From a virus, in the IMG/VR virus record IMGVR_UViG_3300008120_000334, positions 1 to 55,282 of that record: a stretch of 55,282 nucleotides of DNA, one strand, 5' to 3'. Below the pieces are notes generated by a model. It was given only the letters and a program-made list of their open reading frames with translations, was not told the origin of the DNA and did not search any database. Of the stretch, positions 15,702 through 54,927 are shown piece after piece. The translations under genes were made by a program, and so were the position numbers. The number at the start of each line of letters is the position of its first letter. Within the stretch, counting starts at the first letter, position 1.

Positions 15702-16349
15702 ATGTCACTAATTATTTCAGAATCCCAATCAACGCCAAGAACACCTATCCCCGCTGGAATGTATCTTGCTCGCTGCTATGGCCTTATCCAAGTTGGCCGT
15801 TATACAGAGTATTCAGATTTTCTTAAGAAAGACGTAATCGAAAACAAAATACGCATTACTTGGGAATTACCAGCCCTTACAAAAGAGTTCAAAGAAGGTG
15901 AAGGAGAAAGACCTTATTCAATCTCCAAGGAGTTCACTATGTCGCTCAACGAAAAAGGCAACCTACGCCCATTCCTTAACTCGTGGCGCGGCCGTTCTTT
16001 TACAGAGGACGAGCTGAAAGGCTTCGACATTCTTACAATCGTTGGTGCACCGTGTATGCTTAACATCATTCACAAAAAGTCAAAAGATGGCTCAAAGACC
16101 TACGAAGAAATCGCAACAATTACGCCTTTGATGAAAGGTACAGAAATGCCACCAGCTTTCAACGAAAAGCAAATATTGACCTACTCAGGCTGGAATCAAT
16201 CTTTGTTTGATTCACTCCCTGACTTCATCAAAGATAAAATGAAAAAGTCTGACGAGTACTTGGCAATGGTTGCACCATCTCACGTTGAGTCTGCACAGTC
16301 TCCCGTAAATGCTGAATCGTCAGACAAAGACGAAGCCTTGCCGTTTTAG
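15702..16349 (+). CDS. Single-stranded DNA-binding-like protein
   Basis: The 215-residue protein begins with a Ser/Thr/Pro segment, then TPIPAGMYLARCYGLIQVG and KIRITWELP, which fit the beta strands of an OB-like fold seen in phage ssDNA-binding proteins. The last residues DKDEALPF resemble the acidic SSB tip that docks replication partners. Its place in an early operon supports a replication role. Family call by composition and tail, not by a definitive motif. Confidence 0.65.
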   Translation: MSLIISESQSTPRTPIPAGMYLARCYGLIQVGRYTEYSDFLKKDVIENKIRITWELPALTKEFKEGEGERPYSISKEFTMSLNEKGNLRPFLNSWRGRSFTEDELKGFDILTIVGAPCMLNIIHKKSKDGSKTYEEIATITPLMKGTEMPPAFNEKQILTYSGWNQSLFDSLPDFIKDKMKKSDEYLAMVAPSHVESAQSPVNAESSDKDEALPF

Positions 16350-17117: not shown

Positions 17118-17161
17118 TTTTTGTGGCTCGTAGGATGCTCGGTGTTAGGTGTAGTGGAATC

Positions 17162-17292
17162 GTATTTAATTTGCGATTGCCGATGGCGGGGACTTAGAAC
17201 CAAAAACGTTCGGCTTAACAACAAAATTTAATAAGATGTCAGAAATATTAACAACAACCGAAACCCCCGCTATTGGCAATGTGCTGTTATGC
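17162..17292 (+). repeat. Array site A (left box decayed)
   Basis: Right arm CCCCCGCTATTGGCAATG and core GTTATGC (17286-17292) match the left arm GCGATTGCCGATGGCGGGG at about 17173. At the position where the AAC box should lie (about 17162-17168) the sequence is GTATTTA, so the left box is degenerate. It is the boundary site between phage backbone and array. A start codon at 17236 lies in the loop. Confidence 0.7.
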
Positions 17293-17577
17293 GATGTTTA
17301 TCCTAATTGGCTATACATTGAGCTGATTGGAAATAAGTTGCTAATGCACATTTTGAAAGAATACGGCACATTGAATAAAGAAGATTACGAAAGAGTATAT
17401 AAGAGTTATGTTCTTCCATACTTTACAACATGGGACAATTTCAGTTGCTGTATGAATGGAGATGTTCAATACAGCCCCGTTGTCTTGGCTTGGTATGCAG
17501 AAAAAATAGGAGTTAAGCCAACTTATCCTTTAAGAGTAATGAGGCGGGTTGCTTGGTCGCTACGAAATATCGCATAA
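17236..17577 (+). CDS. Cassette 1 protein (113 aa), unknown
   Basis: Starts in the loop of site A (MSEILTTTETPAIGNV), reads through its right arm and core, and ends at a TAA that is part of the left box of site B. The body (LCDVYPNWLYIELIGNKLLM, then YERVYKSYVLPYF) is not a family I know. The first 18 residues or so come from the site rather than from the mobile part of the cassette. Confidence 0.65.
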   Translation: MSEILTTTETPAIGNVLLCDVYPNWLYIELIGNKLLMHILKEYGTLNKEDYERVYKSYVLPYFTTWDNFSCCMNGDVQYSPVVLAWYAEKIGVKPTYPLRVMRRVAWSLRNIA

Positions 17578-17703
17578 CGATAGGTATTTGCGATGGTTGG
17601 ATATTTGAAAATATAAAGATGAATAACTTGATACAGACTGATTTATTTACTACTGCTGATGTGCCAACGTCAAGCCCAACTATTGCAAATACCCATGTTA
17701 GCT
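17572..17703 (+). repeat. Array site B
   Basis: Left box GCATAAC (17572-17578), left arm GGTATTTGCGATGGTTGG, right arm CCAACTATTGCAAATACC, core GTTAGCT (17697-17703). Arm mismatches are G.T wobbles on the plus strand. Start codon of cassette 2 at 17620 in the loop. Confidence 0.85.
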
Positions 17704-18296
17704 GTAGTTGTGGGCAATCGGGGAAATATAAAACAATAGTAATAGACCCACCGTGGAAGTATGGCGTTTGGGGTAAAAGAAATGAAATAACATCTTCCTA
17801 TAAAAAGTTTAAAGTAAATATCGAAACCCCATTGCCATACCCTTATATGACGCTGGATGAAATAAAAGCATTGCCTATAAAGGATTTGGCTGATGAAAAT
17901 TGCGAATTATATGTATGGACTACGCAAAAATATTTGCCTGTAACTTTTGAACTTATAGACCATTGGGGGTTTAAATATTGTACAACGTTAAGCTGGTGTA
18001 AAAAGCCAAGAGGTACGGGTCAAGGTGGTGTTTATTGCCCGACTACTGAATTTATTGTACATGGAAGAATAGGTAATATGCCAAAAGTTAAAAGGATTGA
18101 TAGTACATGGTTTGAGGTAAAAAGACCGCATAATAGCCACAGTACAAAACCTGAATTTTTCCAAGATATGATTGAGACAGTTTCAGATGCTCCACGACTT
18201 GAAATGTTTGCAAGGCGTGAACGTGAAGGGTGGGACGTTTTCGGTAACGAGGTGTCAAACTCTATAAAATTAAACGCTGGTAACAATTACAGCTAA
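17620..18296 (+). CDS. MT-A70-family adenine DNA methyltransferase
   Basis: The ATG at 17620 lies in the loop of site B, and there is no later in-frame start before the catalytic core, so about 27 N-terminal residues are encoded by the site. The enzyme has TIVIDPPWKYG with the DPPW catalytic motif, LYVWTTQKYLP, the SHSTKPEFF segment and RLEMFARREREGWDVFGNE at the C-terminus, all typical of MT-A70 N6-adenine methyltransferases. No restriction partner lies nearby, so protection of phage DNA from host nucleases is a reasonable guess. The TAA at 18294 is inside the left box of site C. Confidence 0.92.
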
Positions 18297-18420
18297 CGGT
18301 TTGCAGGTATATTTAGTGCCGAATTTGAAAAACAAAATTATATGACAACACAAAACTTGATTGAAAAACTAAACTCCGATTATACACGATGCTCGGCATT
18401 GAATATACCTGCTGTTAGCA
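18291..18420 (+). repeat. Array site C
   Basis: Left box AGCTAAC (18291-18297), left arm GCAGGTATATTTAGTGCCG, right arm CGGCATTGAATATACCTGC, core GTTAGCA (18414-18420). The arms differ only at wobble positions. Start codon of cassette 3 at 18342. Confidence 0.88.
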
Positions 18421-18584
18421 GCCGTTTATTCTATCCGATTTATGAAAGTGTAATTGGAGATGAACCGCACCTTAAAGAAGGTGAATTTATTGAAGCCATA
18501 GGTGATGACTTTATGGCGAGGATATTTGGAGTTGGCAAGTTTAGGGATAAAGCCGAAAAGTTCTTTGTTTTAAATGGCTGCTAA
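18342..18584 (+). CDS. Cassette 3 protein (80 aa), unknown
   Basis: Starts in the loop of site C (MTTQNLIEKLNSDYTRC), crosses the core as Val-Ser and ends at a TAA within the left box of site D. The body (FYPIYESVIGDEPHLKEGEF, FMARIFGVGKFRDKAEKFF) is not recognised. Confidence 0.65.
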   Translation: MTTQNLIEKLNSDYTRCSALNIPAVSSRLFYPIYESVIGDEPHLKEGEFIEAIGDDFMARIFGVGKFRDKAEKFFVLNGC

Positions 18585-18709
18585 CGTTAAAACGCTTGGC
18601 GAAGAAGCGGACTTTGAAGCACAAACTTTCAGTTTAGCACAAATGCCAATAGAAAGCACGAATGTTGAATTTAGCACTAAACCCGCTTTTTGCCAAGCGT
18701 GTGTTAGCA
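18579..18709 (+). repeat. Array site D
   Basis: Left box TGCTAAC (18579-18585), left arm ACGCTTGGCGAAGAAGCGG, right arm CCGCTTTTTGCCAAGCGT, core GTTAGCA (18703-18709). The left arm has one extra base, like the extrahelical base of integron attC sites. Confidence 0.88.
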
Positions 18710-18747
18710 CCAGTACTTTTTTAATTAGTAACAATTTAAAACAATAA
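18643..18747 (+). CDS. Read-through leader peptide of cassette 4 (34 aa)
   Basis: Starts in the loop of site D (MPIESTNVEFSTKPAFC), crosses the core as Val-Ser in the same frame as in cassettes 2, 3 and 6, and stops 4 bp before the first full gene of the cassette. It may serve to bring ribosomes to the downstream ATG by coupling. Confidence 0.45.
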   Translation: MPIESTNVEFSTKPAFCQACVSTSTFLISNNLKQ

Positions 18748-18751
18748 TAAA

Positions 18752-19000
18752 ATGCAAGAATTTAATTTAGAACATCAGTATCAACTTTATCTACAAAGAA
18801 TGGCTTTGTCAGAAAGCACAATGCACCCACAACAAAAAATCCAACTACGCCAAACTTTTTTTGGTGCAAGTGGTCAAATGCTAATTCTTTTAAGAGACGA
18901 ATTATCAAAACTTGAAGAAGAAAAAGCAATGGAAACTTTACAAGATTTAATTAACCAAGTAGGCAATTTCTTTTTAGCCGAAACAAACAAAATGAATTAA
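18752..19000 (+). CDS. Small phage-type protein (82 aa)
   Basis: Begins MQEFNLEHQYQLYLQRMAL. The central segment LRQTFFGASGQMLILLRDEL is of a kind I associate with small conserved proteins of Bacteroidota phages and prophages. It is followed 1 bp later by a second such protein. No biochemical role is known to me. Confidence 0.65.
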   Translation: MQEFNLEHQYQLYLQRMALSESTMHPQQKIQLRQTFFGASGQMLILLRDELSKLEEEKAMETLQDLINQVGNFFLAETNKMN

Positions 19001-19001
19001 T

Positions 19002-19259
19002 ATGACACCAAAGCAATTTAAAGAAGCAAATGTAACTTTTGCAAAAGACCAACCCGAATATCAGCCATTACCTGCTTTTAGAAGTGATAGCCCACAAGGT
19101 GAAGTAATTACTTGCTGGAACTTATCATTCAAAGAACGATTAAGGATTTTGTTTAAAGGCGAAATTTGGCTTTGTCTCTTAACATTCAATAAACCATTAA
19201 CACCTACTTTTATAACCACTCAAAAATCAGAGGTATTGTCTGACGGTAGCGGTTCGTAG
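19002..19259 (+). CDS. Small phage-type protein (85 aa)
   Basis: Begins MTPKQFKEANVTFAKDQPEY. The segment CWNLSFKERLRILFKGEIWL followed by FNKPLTPTF is typical of a family I associate with Bacteroidota phages, where it often follows the 82-residue type. The stop lies just upstream of the left box of site E. Confidence 0.65.
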   Translation: MTPKQFKEANVTFAKDQPEYQPLPAFRSDSPQGEVITCWNLSFKERLRILFKGEIWLCLLTFNKPLTPTFITTQKSEVLSDGSGS

Positions 19260-19265
19260 TATTGG

Positions 19266-19396
19266 TGCTAACGTTCGAGTATTGGCGAAGAAGCGGACTT
19301 ATACCATTAAAGTTGATACGAAGCACCAATGTTGATGCTACTACAAATGTTCATACGAAGCACTAAAACCGCTTTTTTGTCAATACTTTGTTATGC
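19266..19396 (+). repeat. Array site E
   Basis: Left box TGCTAAC (19266-19272), left arm GTATTGGCGAAGAAGCGG, right arm CCGCTTTTTTGTCAATAC, core GTTATGC (19390-19396). All three arm differences are G.T wobbles. Confidence 0.88.
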
Positions 19397-19439
19397 GTTC
19401 GCCTTTTTTTCTGTTGATTTTCAGTTAGTTAGAAACTAA
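19329..19439 (+). CDS. Possible read-through leader peptide of cassette 5 (36 aa)
   Basis: An ORF from an ATG in the loop of site E runs through the core (MLMLLQMFIRSTKTAFLSIL) and stops before the cassette's own promoter. It fits the pattern of the other sites but may be fortuitous. Confidence 0.3.
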   Translation: MLMLLQMFIRSTKTAFLSILCYAFAFFSVDFQLVRN

Positions 19440-19472
19440 TTTAAAAATAAATGAAAAATACTTTGAAAAAAG

Positions 19473-19503
19473 TTTGCAGTTATCAAAATAGAACCTATAT
19501 TTG
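19473..19503 (+). promoter_or_regulatory. Internal promoter of cassette 5
   Basis: TTTG at 19473-19476 and TATATTTG at 19496-19503 with a 19-bp spacer, a perfect Bacteroidota-type promoter. It lies between the core of site E and the first full gene of the cassette. Confidence 0.8.
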
Positions 19504-19533
19504 TACTCAGATAACAAATAAAAAATAAACAAA

Positions 19534-19710
19534 ATGACAACGATAATTTTTAAAAACGAAAAGAAAGCAAAAGTTTACGAAGTTAGAGCAGCAAAACCAT
19601 TTCATATTTATTCTGCTGGCGAGTTAATCAAAAGAGTAAAAACTGACAAAATTGAAAACCTAAACGAAAACTACGCAACTGATGAAATCACAGTTACAGA
19701 AATTAAATAA
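19534..19710 (+). CDS. Small hypothetical protein (58 aa)
   Basis: ORF 30 bp behind the cassette 5 promoter. Begins MTTIIFKNEKKAKVYEVRAA. Beta-rich. Overlaps the next gene by 29 bp. Function unknown. Confidence 0.6.
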   Translation: MTTIIFKNEKKAKVYEVRAAKPFHIYSAGELIKRVKTDKIENLNENYATDEITVTEIK

Positions 19711-19894
19711 TCAACTCCAAAAAATCGAAACAGAGCTTTCTAAATGTAGAGGCTCTGTTTTAGAGGATGGATGGCAAACACAGCGTTATGCTAAAAAGAT
19801 GCGTAAATGGGATTATTACGCAATAGAAAAAATGAAAATTTTACAACAAATAGAAGATTATGAAAATAAAATTTGTATCAATGAGGAAGTATAA
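19682..19894 (+). CDS. Small coiled-coil protein (70 aa)
   Basis: Begins MKSQLQKLNNQLQKIETEL, with heptad-like spacing, and ends YENKICINEEV. Second gene of the cassette 5 operon. Function unknown. Confidence 0.6.
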   Translation: MKSQLQKLNNQLQKIETELSKCRGSVLEDGWQTQRYAKKMRKWDYYAIEKMKILQQIEDYENKICINEEV

Positions 19895-20102
19895 AATGTG
19901 TATAGGTTGGAAATATCGCCTAAAAAACTTTTTTACTATTGAGAAATATTGGTCTGGCAAAATAATTCAATTCAGAATTTTATGTGAATATGGTTTTGAT
20001 ATTGATTTGCGGGATGGTGGTTTTAAATTAACCGATTTACTTAATGAGAAAGAAAAAAAGCGTTTTTATTTAGGTATGTGGTTAAGGAAAAATCGGAACT
20101 AA
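19881..20102 (+). CDS. Small basic hypothetical protein (73 aa)
   Basis: I use the ATG at 19881 (MRKYKMCIGWKYRLKNFF), which overlaps the previous gene by 14 bp; an upstream ATG at 19860 is possible. Very rich in Lys and aromatic residues. Its stop overlaps the next start (TAATG). Confidence 0.55.
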   Translation: MRKYKMCIGWKYRLKNFFTIEKYWSGKIIQFRILCEYGFDIDLRDGGFKLTDLLNEKEKKRFYLGMWLRKNRN

Positions 20103-20269
20103 TGAAAAAGAAAAAAGAAAATAGAGGAGGCAAACGCCCTCTCTCTGGTCGTAAAAAAGCGGACCACGAAACTAAAACTATTGCATTTCGTGTTCGTGTC
20201 GAATTTGTCGAACCGATTAAAAAGATGGTAAAAGATTATGTTTCTGAGCGTCTGCAAGGTGACGCATAA
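20102..20269 (+). CDS. Ribbon-helix-helix-like DNA-binding protein (55 aa)
   Basis: Begins MKKKKENRGGKRPLSGRKKA, then KTIAFRVRVEFVEPIKKMV as a strand plus helix and DYVSERL as a second helix. The GGKRP..GRK arm followed by an RHH-like core is common in Bacteroidota phage and plasmid regulators. Its TAA is inside the left box of site F. Confidence 0.65.
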   Translation: MKKKKENRGGKRPLSGRKKADHETKTIAFRVRVEFVEPIKKMVKDYVSERLQGDA

Positions 20270-20395
20270 CGGTTTGCAGCTATATTTAGTTGCGGACTTA
20301 GAAGCACAAAACTTGAATTATTCACAAAATTAAATTAGAAAATATGAACTTGAATGAACCACAAAAACCGCAATTGAATATAGGTGCTGTTAGCG
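20264..20395 (+). repeat. Array site F
   Basis: Left box GCATAAC (20264-20270), left arm GCAGCTATATTTAGTTGCGG, right arm CCGCAATTGAATATAGGTGC, core GTTAGCG (20389-20395). Start codon of cassette 6 at 20344. Confidence 0.87.
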
Positions 20396-20544
20396 GTAGT
20401 GCCACTCCGAACTTTTTAAAGGTTGCCGTTGATGAACTGCTAACCTACAGAACACCGAAAAAGATAATTGATTACATAGAAGCTGAAAAGATGAAATCAA
20501 TAATAGGGAACCCACCGTTTGATGTTTTTGGGCATTACCGCTAA
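20344..20544 (+). CDS. Cassette 6 protein (66 aa), unknown
   Basis: Starts in the loop of site F (MNLNEPQKPQLNIGAVSG), crosses the core as Val-Ser and ends in the left box of site G. The mobile part of this cassette is only about 150 bp long. The body (FLKVAVDELLTYRTPKKIID) is not recognised. Confidence 0.6.
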   Translation: MNLNEPQKPQLNIGAVSGSATPNFLKVAVDELLTYRTPKKIIDYIEAEKMKSIIGNPPFDVFGHYR

Positions 20545-20671
20545 CGGTTCAGGGCTTTGCGAAGGCAGGGCTAAATAGCACAAAAGTTTAAATTAATTAC
20601 AAATGTCAAATAGAAATACAAAAGTTCAAAATCAGCACCAAAGCCCTGCTTTTGCAAAGCCCTTGTTACCT
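20539..20671 (+). repeat. Array site G
   Basis: Left box CGCTAAC (20539-20545), left arm GGGCTTTGCGAAGGCAGGGC, right arm GCCCTGCTTTTGCAAAGCCC, core GTTACCT (20665-20671). The arms have equal length and differ only at two G.T wobbles. Confidence 0.88.
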
Positions 20672-21100
20672 GCCGTTTTTTCTATTAGCAGTAAGGTTTG
20701 TCCAATATGTAAAACAGAAAAAGACTTGTCAAATTTTGGTAAATACTTTTCTAAAGAACGCCAAAAATACAGAGTTCAAAACTATTGCAAAAGTTGTGAA
20801 AAATCAGAAAAGAAAAGGCGTTCAGCAGAATATTACGAAGCTAATAAAGAAGCAAGAAAACAATATCAAAAAGAACACAGGGCAAACCCAAACAACAAAG
20901 AAAAGTTAAAAGCAGTATCGCAAAAATTCAAAATAAAATATCGTGAGGAATTGCAAGACTGCTATGTTAGAGATAGGCTGACACAAGATAATAAAATACC
21001 AAATTATGTTTCAAGGGAATTGCCTGAAATAGTAGAAGCGAAAAGATTACAAATAAAAATTAAACGTAAAATAAAATCATTAAACAATGGCAAAAAATAA
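20603..21100 (+). CDS. Cassette 7 zinc-finger/HNH-like protein (165 aa)
   Basis: Starts in the loop of site G (MSNRNTKVQNQHQSPAF) and reads through the core in a different frame (Leu-Leu-Pro) from the Val-Ser group. CPICKTEKDLSNFGKYF and NYCKSCEKSEKKRRSAEYYE form two Cys pairs like those of phage HNH-family zinc domains, followed by a long basic helix (YYEANKEARKQYQKEHR). The catalytic HNH residues are not evident. It overlaps the next gene by 14 bp. Confidence 0.65.
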   Translation: MSNRNTKVQNQHQSPAFAKPLLPAVFSISSKVCPICKTEKDLSNFGKYFSKERQKYRVQNYCKSCEKSEKKRRSAEYYEANKEARKQYQKEHRANPNNKEKLKAVSQKFKIKYREELQDCYVRDRLTQDNKIPNYVSRELPEIVEAKRLQIKIKRKIKSLNNGKK

Positions 21101-21356
21101 ATTATCAGACTTAAACGACCATCTTTTTATGGCATTAGAAAGATTAAATGACGAGGAATTGACAACCGAACAAATTGAATCTGAAAGTAAAAGAGCAGAA
21201 GCAATTATAGGTGTTGCAAATCAAATTATAGGAACTGCTAAAATTACACTTGACGCTATGAAATTAGTTTCAAATGGAAATTTAGACACAACTGAATTAC
21301 CTGAAAATTTTGGATTTAAACGACTGGTTTCGGATTCTACGCAAAATGGCAGGTAA
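21087..21356 (+). CDS. Small phage-type protein (89 aa)
   Basis: Begins MAKNKLSDLNDHLFMALERL. LSDLNDHLF...L.RL and IGVANQIIGTAKITLDAMKL are typical of a small phage protein often found near HNH and packaging genes. Its TAA is in the left box of site H, so a phage-type gene pair is carried here as one cassette. Confidence 0.65.
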   Translation: MAKNKLSDLNDHLFMALERLNDEELTTEQIESESKRAEAIIGVANQIIGTAKITLDAMKLVSNGNLDTTELPENFGFKRLVSDSTQNGR

Positions 21357-21480
21357 CGTTGAAGCATTGGCGAAGGCAGGGAATAGTAGCACAACTGCCG
21401 AACCAAGTACAAAAGTTAAATAGTGCTACCATTGTTGAAAGTAGAACGTCTGCCCTGCTTTTGCCAATGCAATGTTATAG
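21351..21480 (+). repeat. Array site H
   Basis: Left box AGGTAAC (21351-21357), left arm GCATTGGCGAAGGCAGGG, right arm CCCTGCTTTTGCCAATGC, core GTTATAG (21474-21480). No ATG in the loop gives a read-through gene; cassette 8 has its own start 19 bp behind the core. Confidence 0.88.
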
Positions 21481-21498
21481 GCAGCCTAATTTTAGGAT

Positions 21499-21903
21499 AT
21501 GGAATTTCAAATTATAATGGCTCACGGTGCTATGGGTGCTGATGCAAGCGACACAATGTTAGACACTTTTCTTCGTCAGTTTTCCCAAAAGCACCAAGAA
21601 GAAGGCGAATGGGCTGAAAAATATGGAACTGATTTAGAAACTGAAAAAGTAATGATGAAACGTTATTGCTGGTGCGAAAAAGAAGTTTGTCCATACTGCT
21701 TTGATTTAGAAGAAGAAAAGGTAACACAAGAATTGAAAGAAAAGTATGGAATGGAAGATGATAGAACAGCACCGAACTTTTGGTATAAGCCATTAGATTT
21801 TAAAGTGTGGTGGTATAAATACATTGGTCGTTCTGTCGAGGTTAATAAGCAATTGTCTGATGATGATTTTAAAAAGATGGTTGATGATTGTATGTCGTCA
21901 TAG
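21499..21903 (+). CDS. Cassette 8 protein (134 aa) with Cys cluster
   Basis: Begins MEFQIIMAHGAMGADASDTM. It contains a CWCEKEVCPYCFD cluster near residue 59, probably metal-binding, and a Trp/Tyr-rich C-terminal half (DFKVWWYKYIGRSVEV). Stops just before the left box of site I. Family unknown to me. Confidence 0.6.
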   Translation: MEFQIIMAHGAMGADASDTMLDTFLRQFSQKHQEEGEWAEKYGTDLETEKVMMKRYCWCEKEVCPYCFDLEEEKVTQELKEKYGMEDDRTAPNFWYKPLDFKVWWYKYIGRSVEVNKQLSDDDFKKMVDDCMSS

Positions 21904-21908
21904 GTTGC

Positions 21909-22039
21909 CTATAACGTACAGGTGTTTAAGATGAAGTGGACTTTGAAAAACGTCAGCTCGTTTACTTACTGATGTTAAATAGGATTCTAAAGGTGCAATT
22001 AATTCCGCCCACCACTTTATATTAAACACCATGTTGTGT
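21909..22039 (+). repeat. Array site I
   Basis: Left box CTATAAC (21909-21915), left arm GGTGTTTAAGATGAAGTGG, right arm CCACTTTATATTAAACACC, core GTTGTGT (22033-22039). Most divergent of the complete sites. Confidence 0.8.
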
Positions 22040-22136
22040 GCTGCTGTTTTTATGTCTGTCAAAACCTATATATTGCCAATTTTTAGTTATACTTGTTATC
22101 AAATCAATAAAGTCTTAAACTTAAAACAAAAGAAAC

Positions 22137-22688
22137 ATGAAGGCATTAGACGAGAAGTTATTATATCTCGCATCTGAAAATACGTTGGTCAATTTAAAAG
22201 CCGATGCTACGGAGTTGTTAAAAAGTTATCACGAAACAGAAACAATAATTACAAACAAATCAACGTCTTTGTTGCAGTTTTTATTCCCTGTCTTTGTTGG
22301 TATTTTTGGCTATATTTTAGTTGAAATACAAACTAAAAGCAACCCGAAACTATTTTGGTTTGCTTGTATTGAAGAAATTGTGATTTTCTTGTCATGTTAT
22401 TATTTGTTTGAGTTACTTTATTTAAAGAAAGTCGCTCTAAGCGGGGTGAAACCTTCAAATATGTTACATGATGATATTGTCAAAAACGACGAAAATGGAA
22501 ATACTTTGCAGTATTTAAGATTACGTGTTTTTGGGTTACAAAATGCAATAACCGCTTGTGAAGCAAGTCACGATAAAAGAAAAACAAACTTCAAAAATGC
22601 TTTAAACATTTTAATGATAGGCACTTCTGTTGTTGTCCTTATTTTTTCGTTAGTCCTGATTGGTCAAGGCCTCTTTCTTCATAAGTAG
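22137..22688 (+). CDS. Cassette 9 membrane protein (183 aa)
   Basis: Begins MKALDEKLLYLASENTLVN. A soluble helical head is followed by membrane segments LLQFLFPVFVGIFGYILVEI (about 45-64) and WFACIEEIVIFLSCYYLF (about 75-92), a cytosolic loop, and a third segment (LMIGTSVVVLIFSLVLIGQG) at the C-terminus. The layout resembles small membrane components of some defence and signalling systems, but I see no diagnostic motif. Confidence 0.65.
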   Translation: MKALDEKLLYLASENTLVNLKADATELLKSYHETETIITNKSTSLLQFLFPVFVGIFGYILVEIQTKSNPKLFWFACIEEIVIFLSCYYLFELLYLKKVALSGVKPSNMLHDDIVKNDENGNTLQYLRLRVFGLQNAITACEASHDKRKTNFKNALNILMIGTSVVVLIFSLVLIGQGLFLHK

Positions 22689-22800
22689 TCGTCTCTCTCA
22701 TGGGTTGTCTAACAGGTTGTTGAGCGGGAGTAACAGTTTGTTGTTGTTGGCTTTGTTGTCCTTGCTCTTGGCTGTTATTGTTGTCGTTATTGTTGGTCAT
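22639..22800 (-). CDS. Asn/Gln-rich peptide on the opposite strand of cassette 9 (53 aa)
   Basis: An ORF beginning MTNNNDNNNSQEQGQQSQQQ and ending GLDQSGLTKK, antisense to the end of the membrane protein gene by 50 bp. It would be the only minus-strand gene of the array. The low-complexity start makes the call uncertain, but the sequence between the membrane gene and site J has no other content. Confidence 0.4.
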   Translation of the reverse strand: MTNNNDNNNSQEQGQQSQQQQTVTPAQQPVRQPMRETTTYEERGLDQSGLTKK

Positions 22801-22854
22801 ATTTTTCTATTATTTAAATATCTAAATCTTACGGATGTGTTTTTTTACAGTTGC

Positions 22855-22985
22855 ACACAACGTTTTGCATATTGGAGCAGTAGGGGATTTGGAACACGAA
22901 AGTTTCTATACCCACTACACTTCATTAGATGCAATACCGTTCAATTTACCACTTAAACCCCTATTGCTCTAATATGCTGTTATGC
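22855..22985 (+). repeat. Array site J
   Basis: Left box ACACAAC (22855-22861), left arm GCATATTGGAGCAGTAGGGG, right arm CCCCTATTGCTCTAATATGC, core GTTATGC (22979-22985). Arm differences are G.T wobbles. This site, the promoter at 23076 and a possible leader ORF fill the gap between 22801 and 23148. Confidence 0.87.
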
Positions 22986-23048
22986 TCTCGTTGCGGATTT
23001 TTAGCAGTAAACTTCAATCGGAGCAATGTTTTTTGTTCTTTTTTGTAG
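22929..23048 (+). CDS. Possible read-through leader peptide of cassette 10 (39 aa)
   Basis: An ATG in the loop of site J opens a frame (MQYRSIYHLNPYC) that crosses the core and stops before the cassette promoter. It fits the pattern of other sites; no independent support. Confidence 0.3.
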   Translation: MQYRSIYHLNPYCSNMLLCSRCGFLAVNFNRSNVFCSFL

Positions 23049-23075
23049 GTGGTAAAAAATATTTTTGATAAATAG

Positions 23076-23106
23076 TTTGTAAATACAAAATAAATACTTA
23101 CCTTTG
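23076..23106 (+). promoter_or_regulatory. Internal promoter of cassette 10
   Basis: TTTG at 23076-23079 and TACCTTTG at 23099-23106 with a 19-bp spacer, matching the Bacteroidota consensus. It serves the two-gene operon starting at 23149. Confidence 0.8.
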
Positions 23107-23148
23107 AAGTGTTGTTAGCAATGAAGCTACAATCTAAAATTAAAAACA

Positions 23149-23346
23149 ATGGAAAAGTTAATCACAAATGCAAAAAGTCAATTTGAGAAATTCGGTCAAG
23201 TTAGAATCACTATTTATCCTAATCGTAGTGTAAATGATAGCTACGATATAGTTGAGAAGACAATGGATTCAGCTATTGAATCAATATCACATTTATACCA
23301 ATCGGTAACAGACGACCTTAGTGTTTCACACGCAAATGCAATGTAA
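23149..23346 (+). CDS. Small hypothetical protein (65 aa)
   Basis: Begins MEKLITNAKSQFEKFGQVRI. Alpha/beta composition. Its stop overlaps the start of the RHH-like gene (TAATG). The pair has the form of a small toxin-antitoxin or regulator operon, but no toxin motif is visible. Confidence 0.6.
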   Translation: MEKLITNAKSQFEKFGQVRITIYPNRSVNDSYDIVEKTMDSAIESISHLYQSVTDDLSVSHANAM

Positions 23347-23510
23347 TGAGCAACACGAAAAAAGTAACGATAAGCCTTACTCCTGAACAACAGGATAAGG
23401 CTCGTTCTTTATCAAAAGATTTATTTGGTAAAGAAAATATATCTGGACTAATCGGATTTTTGATTGAGCGTTGGGAAAAAGAACAAAAAACTTCCACAAA
23501 TGTCAAATAG
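23346..23510 (+). CDS. Ribbon-helix-helix-like protein (54 aa)
   Basis: An ORF overlapping the previous stop. It begins MSNTKKVTISLTPEQQDKAR (strand, then helix) and continues LFGKENISGLIGFLIERWEK (second helix), the layout of MetJ/Arc-type regulators. Probably autoregulates the cassette 10 operon. Confidence 0.65.
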   Translation: MSNTKKVTISLTPEQQDKARSLSKDLFGKENISGLIGFLIERWEKEQKTSTNVK

Positions 23511-23522
23511 AAGCGGTCACGT

Positions 23523-23560
23523 AGCAATGGAGCATAACGAGTTTATTTGCGAAACTCTAC
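23523..23560 (+). repeat. Array half site K (right end)
   Basis: GCATAAC (23532-23538) followed by G and a left arm (TTTATTTGCGAAACTC). The preceding bases match the complement of the start of cassette 10, so it is the genuine end of that cassette. No matching right arm or core follows, so the array ends in a half site. Confidence 0.7.
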
Positions 23561-23583
23561 CCCCGTCAACTACTTAATAATCA

Positions 23584-23808
23584 ATGAAAATACAGGTTAC
23601 ATACTACGCAAAATGGCAGATAAAAGATGCTACTTGGTATAAGTGGACTACCTGTAAAAAGTTGATAAATTGCAAAACAGGGCGTGAGATTAAAAAGACC
23701 ACAAAGGGCGCACAGGCGGGGTATTATATTGAAGGAGAGTTTGTAAAAATTTCCGACCTCAAAAATAGAGTAGAACTAATACCTTTTAAGGAGAAATTGC
23801 CATTTTAA
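23584..23808 (+). CDS. Small protein with LPF tail (74 aa)
   Basis: Begins MKIQVTYYAKWQIKDATWYK. Rich in Lys and aromatic residues, ending FKEKLPF. The end resembles the tips of the SSB-like protein (EALPF) and the helicase (EAAPF). First backbone gene after the array. Function unknown. Confidence 0.6.
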   Translation: MKIQVTYYAKWQIKDATWYKWTTCKKLINCKTGREIKKTTKGAQAGYYIEGEFVKISDLKNRVELIPFKEKLPF

Positions 23809-52173: not shown

Positions 52174-54927
52174 CTACCAAACCTCAACCGTAGGCTCTGA
52201 TTTTAAGTTGTAAGGGGCTAACACCCAACAAGTACGGGCAAACAGTCCGCTCATTATACCGTCTATCTTGGTGTTCTTGCTTTGCTTGGTAAGTATTAGG
52301 TTGTTGCCCTTTACCAAACAAAGAACGTTTGATGCCATCCATCCAAGTACAGGGTCGTTTTGGTGAAACAAAACCTTCTTTTTAATATCCGTCTCAAAGT
52401 CTCGAATAAACGGAGTTAAGAACCTGGGGGATTGGCTGATTTTAAACATGACAATTCCCTCATTCTCTAAATCGGTAAACATATTGCCTGTATAGGCTTG
52501 GTCAGCAGCAATACTTTGCAGATTTACAACCTTGGTACGCTCAACGATAAAGTCCTTTGCTTGGTTTAGGTCAATGCAGTTTCCTTCGCACACAAACAAA
52601 ATACCATTCTTAACCCACTCCCTAACACTTGCAAGCCCTAACTTTTCAAGTTCTTTGTACTTTTCTTCGTGAGTCCATGCCCATTGCTTCCACGATAACC
52701 CACCTTCTACGGGGTAAACTTCGGAGTAGCTTAGAAGGTCGTTTGTTACGGCCACGTCAAGGCCGCCATAAGCCACGGGGTATTCATCGAGTGGTATTAT
52801 TGTAGGATTTTCCCAAACGTCGGCTGTAATCCAAGTAACCGCGCTATCCGTCCAAACGTTAAGGTGTTTTGTTTTGAAGTCAACCTCTTTACTACCCGAT
52901 ACCTTTGCCTCTTCAAACTCCGATAACAAAGACGCTTTTGTAACTGACACCCCGTAATTAGGATTTGCTTTCTCCCAAACTTTCGGGTCTTGCCAGTCGT
53001 CGCCTTCGTCTATTGAATAGATAACGCCAAATAACCCTTCGTTTGATATTGTACCATCAAGTACTTTCTTTACAATGCTGTTTCTATATTCGTAGCAAGG
53101 GCCGTTTCTATCGCTTCCTGCGGTTGTGATAATAAAAAACAAAGGCTGCTTTCTTGCGGCCATACCTGAGCGCAAAGAGTTCTTTACATCGTCATTTTTG
53201 TGAACGTGGTATTCGTCAAAAATTACACAGTGGGCGTTTTTCCCTTCGGTATTGTTGGCATCGTGGCTAACGGCCTCAAACTTTGATCTGTCTCCAAATT
53301 TAAAATGGTGTACCCTAAACTGTGCGTGAGTTTTAATATAAGCCGATTCTTCCGCCAGACGTTTTAACATTGAGGCCGATTCGTCATAGCATATTTTTGC
53401 TTGGTCGCGGGTAAAAGCAGCCGCGTAAACCTCCGCCCCTAACTCTCCATCGGCCACCAAACAGCAATTTCCAACCGCCGCGCCCAAGGAGGTATTGTGA
53501 GTAGGTATAAATGACTTTGTTACCAAAAATAGGCTTCTTGGGGAATCTACTTGAATACACCTAACTGGAACTGATTCTACATCGTTTATCTCGACAATTT
53601 GACGGTAATTTGAACGCTTACTTTCTCCACTTCCATTTTTTAGCCTATCTTTTTTTCTTTGTAGCTTAAAGCATGTATTTTCGGAGAAACACCAAAATTG
53701 AACTCTATATTTTAATCCCATCCTACGCCCTTCAAAATAACTATCTGCTATTTTAACACTTGGCTTTAATCCTAAGCTACGGCACAATTCCATAAAACCT
53801 TTACATAGCAATTCGGAAGTAGTAGTAAATTCGCATTGTCCAGCTTTTGAGCAATACCCATCGGTATCCATCAACCCTTTTAGCAACTCCCATCTATCCT
53901 CAATACTGGATTGAAGGTATAGGTCTGGAATATGTTTGTTGCCAAATAAGTTTAACTTTCTTAATCTCGCAGCAATAGAATTGTCTCTTTCTTTTTGCGA
54001 TTTTCCACAGGCTCCTAATGTGTAGTATCCGCAATTATTTCGCTTATCAATATTGGGTACGCCTAATGGAGTAATTGCTTTTATATGCTCTATTAATTCA
54101 ATATCAGCACCCCCAATAGTAACTCTGCCGCTTTCACTATCTCCATCACCAAGCCAAAAACCAAGAATATAAGGGTTTACAGGCAAGTCTTTTTTAGGGT
54201 ATTCTACTGCTTGACAATTCTTTATTCTATGATTGGCAACCAAATCTTTTTTTACCCCTTGTTCAAAATAAAGAGTTTCTTTTATTTTCTCAGTAGTAAA
54301 AACAATACGTTTGTCAAGGTTTGACCAGTCCTTCTTTTTCTTTCCCTTAAAATCTTTTCTACAATCCCTACCAGTTCTATACGGCTGTGTCTCCCACAGG
54401 TGTTCTGCATCAGCAATAACTTTTGTGCCGTCCGAAAACACCATTTCGTAGCATTTTCGATTGTACATTACATCGGTCGCAAATGTCACATGGCACACTT
54501 TTCCATTTTCATCAAAAAGAGCGTCACCCTCTTTTAATGACCCCATAGTTTTCCATCCATCTGGCGTTGGAATAGGAGTATCAAGAGCTAAAGCCTTCCC
54601 ATTTTTTTTGGGAATTTCTACATAAGCCTCTCTAAAACGCCTTGTTCCGTCTGCAATCCATCGCCAGCCAAAGATATTCCAGTAAATGAACTTTTGCCAC
54701 GGCTCAAGTATAAAACGCTTCTTTTCGCCCTTTGTGAGCCAAAGAGTCTCAGTAAAGGCTATTTTAATACTTGCGGCTTGTTCGTCGAAATAAAACCCTT
54801 TGGATTTGGCATTTATTTGGTCGTCAAGGTAGCGTTTACAAGCAAGTTTTACATCCATGCCAGCCGCTTTTTTACCTGTTAGCACGTCGTTTACATACTT
54901 GTCAACCTCTCTTTTGTAACTTTTCAT
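52174..54927 (-). CDS. terL: Terminase large subunit precursor with intein (917 aa)
   Basis: Residues 1-111 and 479-917 form the terminase. The ATPase has a P-loop KKNGK/TSLGAA that is split by the intein, and Walker B AHCVIFDEYHVH. The nuclease domain has AYGGLDVAVTNDL with the first acidic residue and AADQAYTGNMF. Without the intein the protein has 550 residues, a normal TerL length. It pumps DNA into the prohead and cuts it. It overlaps the small subunit by ATGA. The ATPase can only work after splicing because the intein interrupts the P-loop. Confidence 0.95.
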   Translation of the reverse strand: MKSYKREVDKYVNDVLTGKKAAGMDVKLACKRYLDDQINAKSKGFYFDEQAASIKIAFTETLWLTKGEKKRFILEPWQKFIYWNIFGWRWIADGTRRFREAYVEIPKKNGKALALDTPIPTPDGWKTMGSLKEGDALFDENGKVCHVTFATDVMYNRKCYEMVFSDGTKVIADAEHLWETQPYRTGRDCRKDFKGKKKKDWSNLDKRIVFTTEKIKETLYFEQGVKKDLVANHRIKNCQAVEYPKKDLPVNPYILGFWLGDGDSESGRVTIGGADIELIEHIKAITPLGVPNIDKRNNCGYYTLGACGKSQKERDNSIAARLRKLNLFGNKHIPDLYLQSSIEDRWELLKGLMDTDGYCSKAGQCEFTTTSELLCKGFMELCRSLGLKPSVKIADSYFEGRRMGLKYRVQFWCFSENTCFKLQRKKDRLKNGSGESKRSNYRQIVEINDVESVPVRCIQVDSPRSLFLVTKSFIPTHNTSLGAAVGNCCLVADGELGAEVYAAAFTRDQAKICYDESASMLKRLAEESAYIKTHAQFRVHHFKFGDRSKFEAVSHDANNTEGKNAHCVIFDEYHVHKNDDVKNSLRSGMAARKQPLFFIITTAGSDRNGPCYEYRNSIVKKVLDGTISNEGLFGVIYSIDEGDDWQDPKVWEKANPNYGVSVTKASLLSEFEEAKVSGSKEVDFKTKHLNVWTDSAVTWITADVWENPTIIPLDEYPVAYGGLDVAVTNDLLSYSEVYPVEGGLSWKQWAWTHEEKYKELEKLGLASVREWVKNGILFVCEGNCIDLNQAKDFIVERTKVVNLQSIAADQAYTGNMFTDLENEGIVMFKISQSPRFLTPFIRDFETDIKKKVLFHQNDPVLGWMASNVLCLVKGNNLILTKQSKNTKIDGIMSGLFARTCWVLAPYNLKSEPTVEVW
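53494..54594 (-). other. Intein with LAGLIDADG endonuclease, class 3 signature
   Basis: The 367-residue element lies between KKNGK and TSLGAA in the P-loop of TerL. It starts with Ala (ALALDTPIPTPDGW), has AEHLW with Trp at intein residue 67, VRCIQVDS with Cys at residue 346, and ends FIPTHN before a Thr. Ala at position 1 together with the Trp, Cys and +1 Thr is the class 3 (WCT) signature, in which the block F Cys starts splicing. Two dodecapeptide motifs (LGFWLGDGD and LKGLMDTDG) show a homing endonuclease of LAGLIDADG type. Confidence 0.9.

Follow-up and report, generated by a model that had tools for sequence, protein, structure and literature searches.

How does a phage come to carry a row of small genes separated by hairpins that resemble integron recombination sites, and can such units move? 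We addressed this question in a viral DNA stretch of 55,282 nucleotides, IMG/VR virus record IMGVR_UViG_3300008120_000334, the whole of which is called the window below. The record comes without a host genome; its terminase, portal, head and tape-measure genes mark it as a tailed phage. The region from 17.2 to 23.5 kb holds ten cassettes on a single strand, delimited by nine AACG..GTT hairpin sites, a decayed site A and a half site K. Judged from sequence comparison, this region is very probably the cassette array of a phage integron without its integrase, of the type known as a cluster of attC sites lacking integron integrases (CALIN). The evidence covers site structure, matched cassette ends, unit borders, gene inversion, and the gain and loss of cassettes in related phages.

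Hairpin sites and matched cassette ends

The sites measure 124–127 bp from TAACG to GTTA and about 130–133 bp including the outer boxes, the latter being the size given in an earlier note on this DNA. The note's array of nine complete sites, a decayed A and a half site K on one strand was confirmed by a site scan, by shuffles and by control DNA. A box-plus-hairpin scan detected nine sites in the array, with all eight adjacent pairs matched at their ends, and no site outside it in the window. One hundred first-order (Markov) shuffles of the array yielded a mean of 0.13 sites and no matched pairs. Both strands of 1.06 Mb of control viral DNA, which was derived from a first viral site pattern whose matches were mostly chance, gave 17 sites and again no matched pair. 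A search of Rfam returned no match.

In all ten cassettes, the bases after the GTT of one site are complementary to those before the AAC of the next, exactly and over 9–10 bp. These matched ends differ from cassette to cassette, the two flanks of a given site do not match in this way, and none of 100,000 permutations reached the observed pattern. Circular closure of each cassette would therefore restore a complete site, as it does for integron cassettes. Integron-type AAC/GTT hairpin sites that bracket each cassette, with circularisation-compatible ends, are thus present in the window. With nine attC sites, where the definition asks for at least two, and no intI nearby, the array is a CALIN. 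In most cassettes, including those of the window and of Flavobacterium sp. AS60, a top-strand G.T pair at position 11 comes after the matched ends, and after it about four further bases are paired.

Neither the integron-integrase model TIGR02249 nor a hidden Markov model of the Bacteroidota integrase described below finds an integrase in the 55 kb, in agreement with the earlier note. The window's array would therefore need an integrase acting in trans.

Polarity of the mobile unit and inversion of the genes

When one genome per species was scanned, this site type turned up mainly in Bacteroidota, and arrays next to an integrase, for which the earlier note had proposed a search, do exist there. 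Flavobacterium sp. AS60 carries 43 sites, with matched ends in 41 of 42 adjacent cassettes, and in Flavobacterium sp. SM15, 21 sites were detected, with matched ends in 16 of 20. The polarity of the bacterial arrays points outward from the integrase, whichever of its ends (3′ or 5′) is turned toward the array.

Which hairpin travels with which gene can be read from natural variants. In two exact duplications within bacterial arrays, the hairpin on the AACG side (5′ in the window's orientation) is kept at 100%, the other hairpin is changed, and identity starts at AAC. A cassette common to SM15 and another genome is 97% identical, with the AACG-side hairpin at 99% and the other-side hairpin at 59%. 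Likewise, the viral contigs L315 and L390 have one unit in common, both edges of which fall exactly at AAC. These duplicated and shared cassettes, together with the natural phage variants described below, locate the crossover at the AAC box and define the mobile unit as a site plus the gene that follows it. On this basis, attC in its true orientation is TAACA..CGTTA, which is the earlier note's form reverse-complemented, and it lies antisense to the window's genes. The integron-like polarity that the note had stated is hence reversed, as judged from the duplicated and shared units and from junctions in the Polaribacter phages Freya and Danklef.

Taken alone, the matched ends in the window fit both polarities, and would also suit a classical integron array acquired from a bacterium, in which each gene is followed by its attC and crossover occurs at the right GTT. 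This reading is hardly tenable: shared and duplicated units keep their upstream and not their downstream hairpin, the Freya and Danklef junctions lie at AAC, the half site stands at the 3′ end of a gene, and bacterial arrays with the same site family carry their genes the opposite way round.

The direction of the genes, scored as that of the longest ATG-started open reading frame (ORF), separates the phage arrays from the bacterial ones. In bacteria, 100 of 108 cassettes have the classical sense and 8 are inverted, which refutes the possibility that bacterial arrays have the phage-like direction. All eight scored cassettes of the window are inverted relative to attC, as are 166 of 175 viral cassettes on 65 contigs (Fisher p 3e-55 against the bacterial set, with cassettes within a contig not independent of each other); contigs with the classical sense in every cassette number only three of the 65. 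Because the site pattern was applied to both strands in the viral scan, gene direction was not selected. We regard this inversion as the most unusual feature of the window array.

Integrases and cassette movement in related phages

The bacterial arrays adjoin a tyrosine recombinase, mostly of 347–396 amino acids, a classification that Pfam bears out. It scores 192–212 bits with TIGR02249 (cut-off 265), leaves approximately columns 180–238 of that model unmatched, and narrowly misses an XerA-like model. In the integrases of the relatives, an extra segment between the catalytic patches is absent: the spacing from KG..R to HxxRH is 59–67 residues, against 106 in IntI1, and an IntI-like SPLDxL end is present. 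A tree groups the new integrases with IntI1 and IntI2 against two Xer proteins (100/100) and places the phage integrases in clades of their own, with few outgroups and several open forks. On these comparisons, the Bacteroidota and phage integrases are IntI-related proteins without the IntI-specific additional domain.

Of 396 genomes sampled from the class, 219 have a strong relative of the Bacteroidota integrase. In many of these, contigs tend to stop 100–250 bp past the integrase's 3′ end, where array repeats probably break the assembly. Several Bacteroidota integrases (L188, L191, L194 and others) have an extra N-terminal segment of about 70–100 amino acids, which contains a W..xxW.xP motif and matches no Pfam family significantly; it is absent from the phage versions, and a likeness to a HARP-like fold was seen by eye only. 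A plasmid of Chryseobacterium sp. SNU WT5 (L511) carries a relative of the integrase and similar sites, with a group II intron nearby.

Phages also encode such a protein. A relative of about 260–300 amino acids is encoded by nine of the 49 viral records that bear an array, in most of them beside that array. Where array and integrase share the same 20 kb, the genes and the integrase are co-directional and the integrase comes last. The cultured Polaribacter phages Freya and Leef have the short integrase beside an array, and Leef_1 shows the same layout. As to the viral nature of the other contigs, two Pfam terminase models match 12 of 27; phrog_9 and phrog_12 were tried as hallmark tests and proved too narrow. 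The earlier note had looked to the integrase of the host or of another element: supply in trans would be needed, as it implied, but the host is not the only possible source, since related phages encode their own.

Related phages differ by whole cassettes. Two contigs linked to the window via the gene at 15,702–16,349, L414 and L416, have flanks that are mostly 90–98% identical and enclose two common cassettes in different order, with one constant half-site flank closing both arrays. Phages Freya_1 and Freya_10 have no mismatch over 40,632 bp from the integrase to PcfJ. Directly upstream of the integrase, whole cassettes distinguish the seven Freya isolates compared, and each junction lies at AAC: in four of the differences, the whole stretch up to the integrase-proximal half site is gone; in one, an internal unit is missing; and Freya_6 carries one new unit inserted at that half site. 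This 469-bp cassette of Freya_6 (L519/L520) has an attC loop of a few hundred bp that seemingly holds a small ORF. Danklef_1 and Freya_10 share a 1169-bp unit, 99.6% identical, with edges at AAC. Over the 11.5 kb compared, Danklef_3 differs from Danklef_5 solely in having lost a 781-bp adenine-methylase unit, again with edges at AAC. The Danklef integrase is annotated as a 132-bp remnant, and the cassettes therefore probably move in trans, which makes Danklef the closest model for the window.

Could homologous recombination between the repeated hairpins reshuffle these genes without a site-specific recombinase? The sites are indeed repeats and phages are mosaic. Yet the hairpins average only about 65% identity, the junctions in Freya, Danklef and L315/L390 lie exactly at AAC where homologous exchange would put crossovers within the arms, and the cassette-specific matched ends would go unexplained. 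We consider this explanation highly improbable.

We instead favour site-specific exchange by an integron-type system, in which the mobile unit would be an attC hairpin followed by its gene. Crossover would occur at the AAC box (AA^CG on the top strand, C-G^TT in the true attC orientation); the unit would be excised as a circle and could re-enter at another attC or at half site K, a stand-in for attI. The recombinase, provided in trans, may be the IntI-related tyrosine recombinase of a putative Bacteroidota host or of a co-infecting phage. Catalysis by this integrase, its use of strands, trans action in the window's phage and a fitness benefit are what we infer from the sequences. Three points weigh against this scheme. 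First, the IntI-specific domain is absent from the integrases, and classical attC chemistry therefore cannot be assumed. Second, the signal for extrahelical bases and L boxes like those in classical attC is mixed: within the present site sets, the arms show an excess of top-strand G.T pairs and left-arm bulges (299 against 126 in viral sites and 150 against 116 in bacterial sites), which is less clear in bacteria. Third, no further isolate of the phage in the window, carrying other cassettes, was found, the contig L121 matching only structural genes. A DNA search of GenBank phages with the left 25 kb of the window gave no match.

Cargo, expression and wider meaning

The array begins with site A (17,161–17,289, minus strand), a decayed distal attC whose arms pair and whose left AAC box is altered to CGATT in attC orientation. 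Within its loop lies the ATG of the ORF of the first cassette (17,236–17,577, plus strand; 113 amino acids), which has no Pfam match. The units that follow are all on the plus strand, and the coordinates of their nine sites run from AAC to GTT. Unit B (17,576–18,294) joins an attC at 17,576–17,699 to an MT-A70 adenine methyltransferase gene (17,619–18,296), and unit C (18,295–18,582) an attC at 18,295–18,416 to an 80-amino-acid ORF (18,342–18,584). Unit D (18,583–19,269) has its attC at 18,583–18,705 and ORFs at 18,752–19,000 and 19,002–19,259; unit E (19,270–20,267) has its attC at 19,270–19,392 and small ORFs, including 19,682–19,894 and 19,860–20,102. In unit F (20,268–20,542; attC 20,268–20,391), a 66-amino-acid ORF (20,344–20,544) starts within the attC. 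Unit G (20,543–21,354; attC 20,543–20,667) carries ORFs at 20,603–21,100 and 21,087–21,356, unit H (21,355–21,912; attC 21,355–21,476) an ORF at 21,499–21,903, and unit I (21,913–22,858; attC 21,913–22,035) one at 22,137–22,688. Unit J (22,859–23,535; attC 22,859–22,981) holds an ORF at 23,149–23,346 and a second small ORF directly 3′ of it. Half site K (23,536–23,600, minus strand) consists of the cassette-closing AAC at 23,536 and a non-hairpin flank, and is the attI equivalent at the integrase-proximal end of the array. The same arrangement occurs in relatives, in integrase-bearing phages and in bacteria. An attI-like primary site at the proximal array end is thus present as a half site, and most cassette changes in Freya end there. 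Elsewhere in the window, the large terminase subunit (52,174–54,927, minus strand) is interrupted at residues of about 333–402 by matches to LAGLIDADG/homing endonucleases, probably an intein.

The window's cargo comprises the MT-A70 methyltransferase (PF05063, E 5e-21; a type II methyltransferase in PADLOC) along with numerous small proteins of unknown kind. In a set of 62 larger proteins from phage cassettes, DNA methyltransferase families account for 30 matches (N6/N4 22, C5 5, MT-A70 2, Dam 1), where any one protein may match two families; one Tad3 (a Thoeris inhibitor) and one TAGT DNA-modifying glycosyltransferase also occur. The matches listed for 62 bacterial cassette proteins (25 of 26 families) include no DNA methyltransferase; among them are PvuRts1I-like, AbiJ, TIR and restriction endonuclease domains, which belong to restriction and abortive infection. 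These family matches suggest that the phage cassettes may act in counter-defence, and exchange of methyltransferases and other counter-defence genes would be the likely benefit of the array.

Lying antisense to attC, the cassette genes would be read along with the phage's rightward genes, each with an attC in its 5′ leader that may supply the start codon for some. The MT-A70 gene is such a case: its only plausible start codon is in the attC, with the ATG and an A-rich leader in the loop, and there is no in-frame ATG, GTG or TTG between the GTT and the catalytic domain. As a general rule, starts within attC were rejected, occurring in 62 of 171 phage cassettes where about 56 are expected (one third per frame). 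In cassettes with such a start, the next ATG in the body is farther off (median 88 against 46 bp, p 0.04). The start codon thus comes from attC in a subset of cassettes only.

These starts, and the missing integrase, would also accord with hairpins that serve mainly in expression, as RNA leaders, terminators or translation starts, in a window array that is no longer mobile. Such a reading is unlikely, as the rate of starts within sites is near chance and relatives shuffle their cassettes; a loss of mobility could apply to the window alone. The reading that we prefer remains a phage integron array whose integrase is elsewhere.

Phage CALINs were already known, contrary to the earlier note's view that phages with long cassette arrays are poorly described; the reshuffling that it foresaw is borne out by L414 and L416. 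In the parts of their paper drawn on here, Qi et al. 2023 (PMC9892861) report, for a set of 10,705 phage genomes, three complete integrons, one In0 and 17 CALINs; the CALINs, among them that of Polaribacter phage P12002L, were detected by means of existing attC models, and IntI1 recombined several of their sites in E. coli. Like the window, these CALINs have attC-bounded cassettes without an integrase and methyltransferase cargo. Neither a phage-native integrase of the present type nor systematic gene inversion is noted in those parts, and the window differs in having ten cassettes, another site family, inversion and integrase-bearing relatives. Class 1 and sedentary chromosomal integrons share with it AAC/GTT hairpin sites, matched ends, one orientation, a simple integrase-proximal site and an IntI-related recombinase; in contrast, the relatives' integrase lacks the IntI-specific domain, the phage genes are antisense to attC, and the window has no integrase. 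Most of the Bacteroidota arrays detected here have a reversed integrase, as do Spirochaete-type integrons with reversed intI (PMC9668308), which have a different site family and belong to another integrase group; in the phage version, the genes are moreover inverted and the integrase lies downstream of them. The genomes of the Polaribacter phages Freya, Danklef and Leef (Bartlau et al., PMC8776804) have the same architecture as the window; there, the integrase was taken as a sign of temperate life, and the main text mentions neither 'integron' nor 'cassette'. For Bacteroidetes proper, IntegronFinder 2.0 (PMC9024848) lists only In0 elements and one complete integron (Salinibacter). We found no account of a phage-encoded integron with inverted cassettes in a literature search that left preprints and subscription papers outside its scope, so that novelty is provisional.

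More broadly, Bacteroidota phages probably possess an integron class of their own, in which a short integrase without the IntI-specific domain sits at the array end and cassettes are inverted for reading in one direction. It would maintain a pool apart from that of the host and swap counter-defence genes, the window's phage being a user without an integrase. If so, phages run integrons themselves, beyond carrying captured pieces, and their cassette pool faces opposite to the bacterial one, with a cargo that fits an arms race. The cultured isolates of Freya and Danklef make both recombination and benefit testable. For the bacteria, our data suggest that integrons are common in Bacteroidota and have been overlooked by standard searches.

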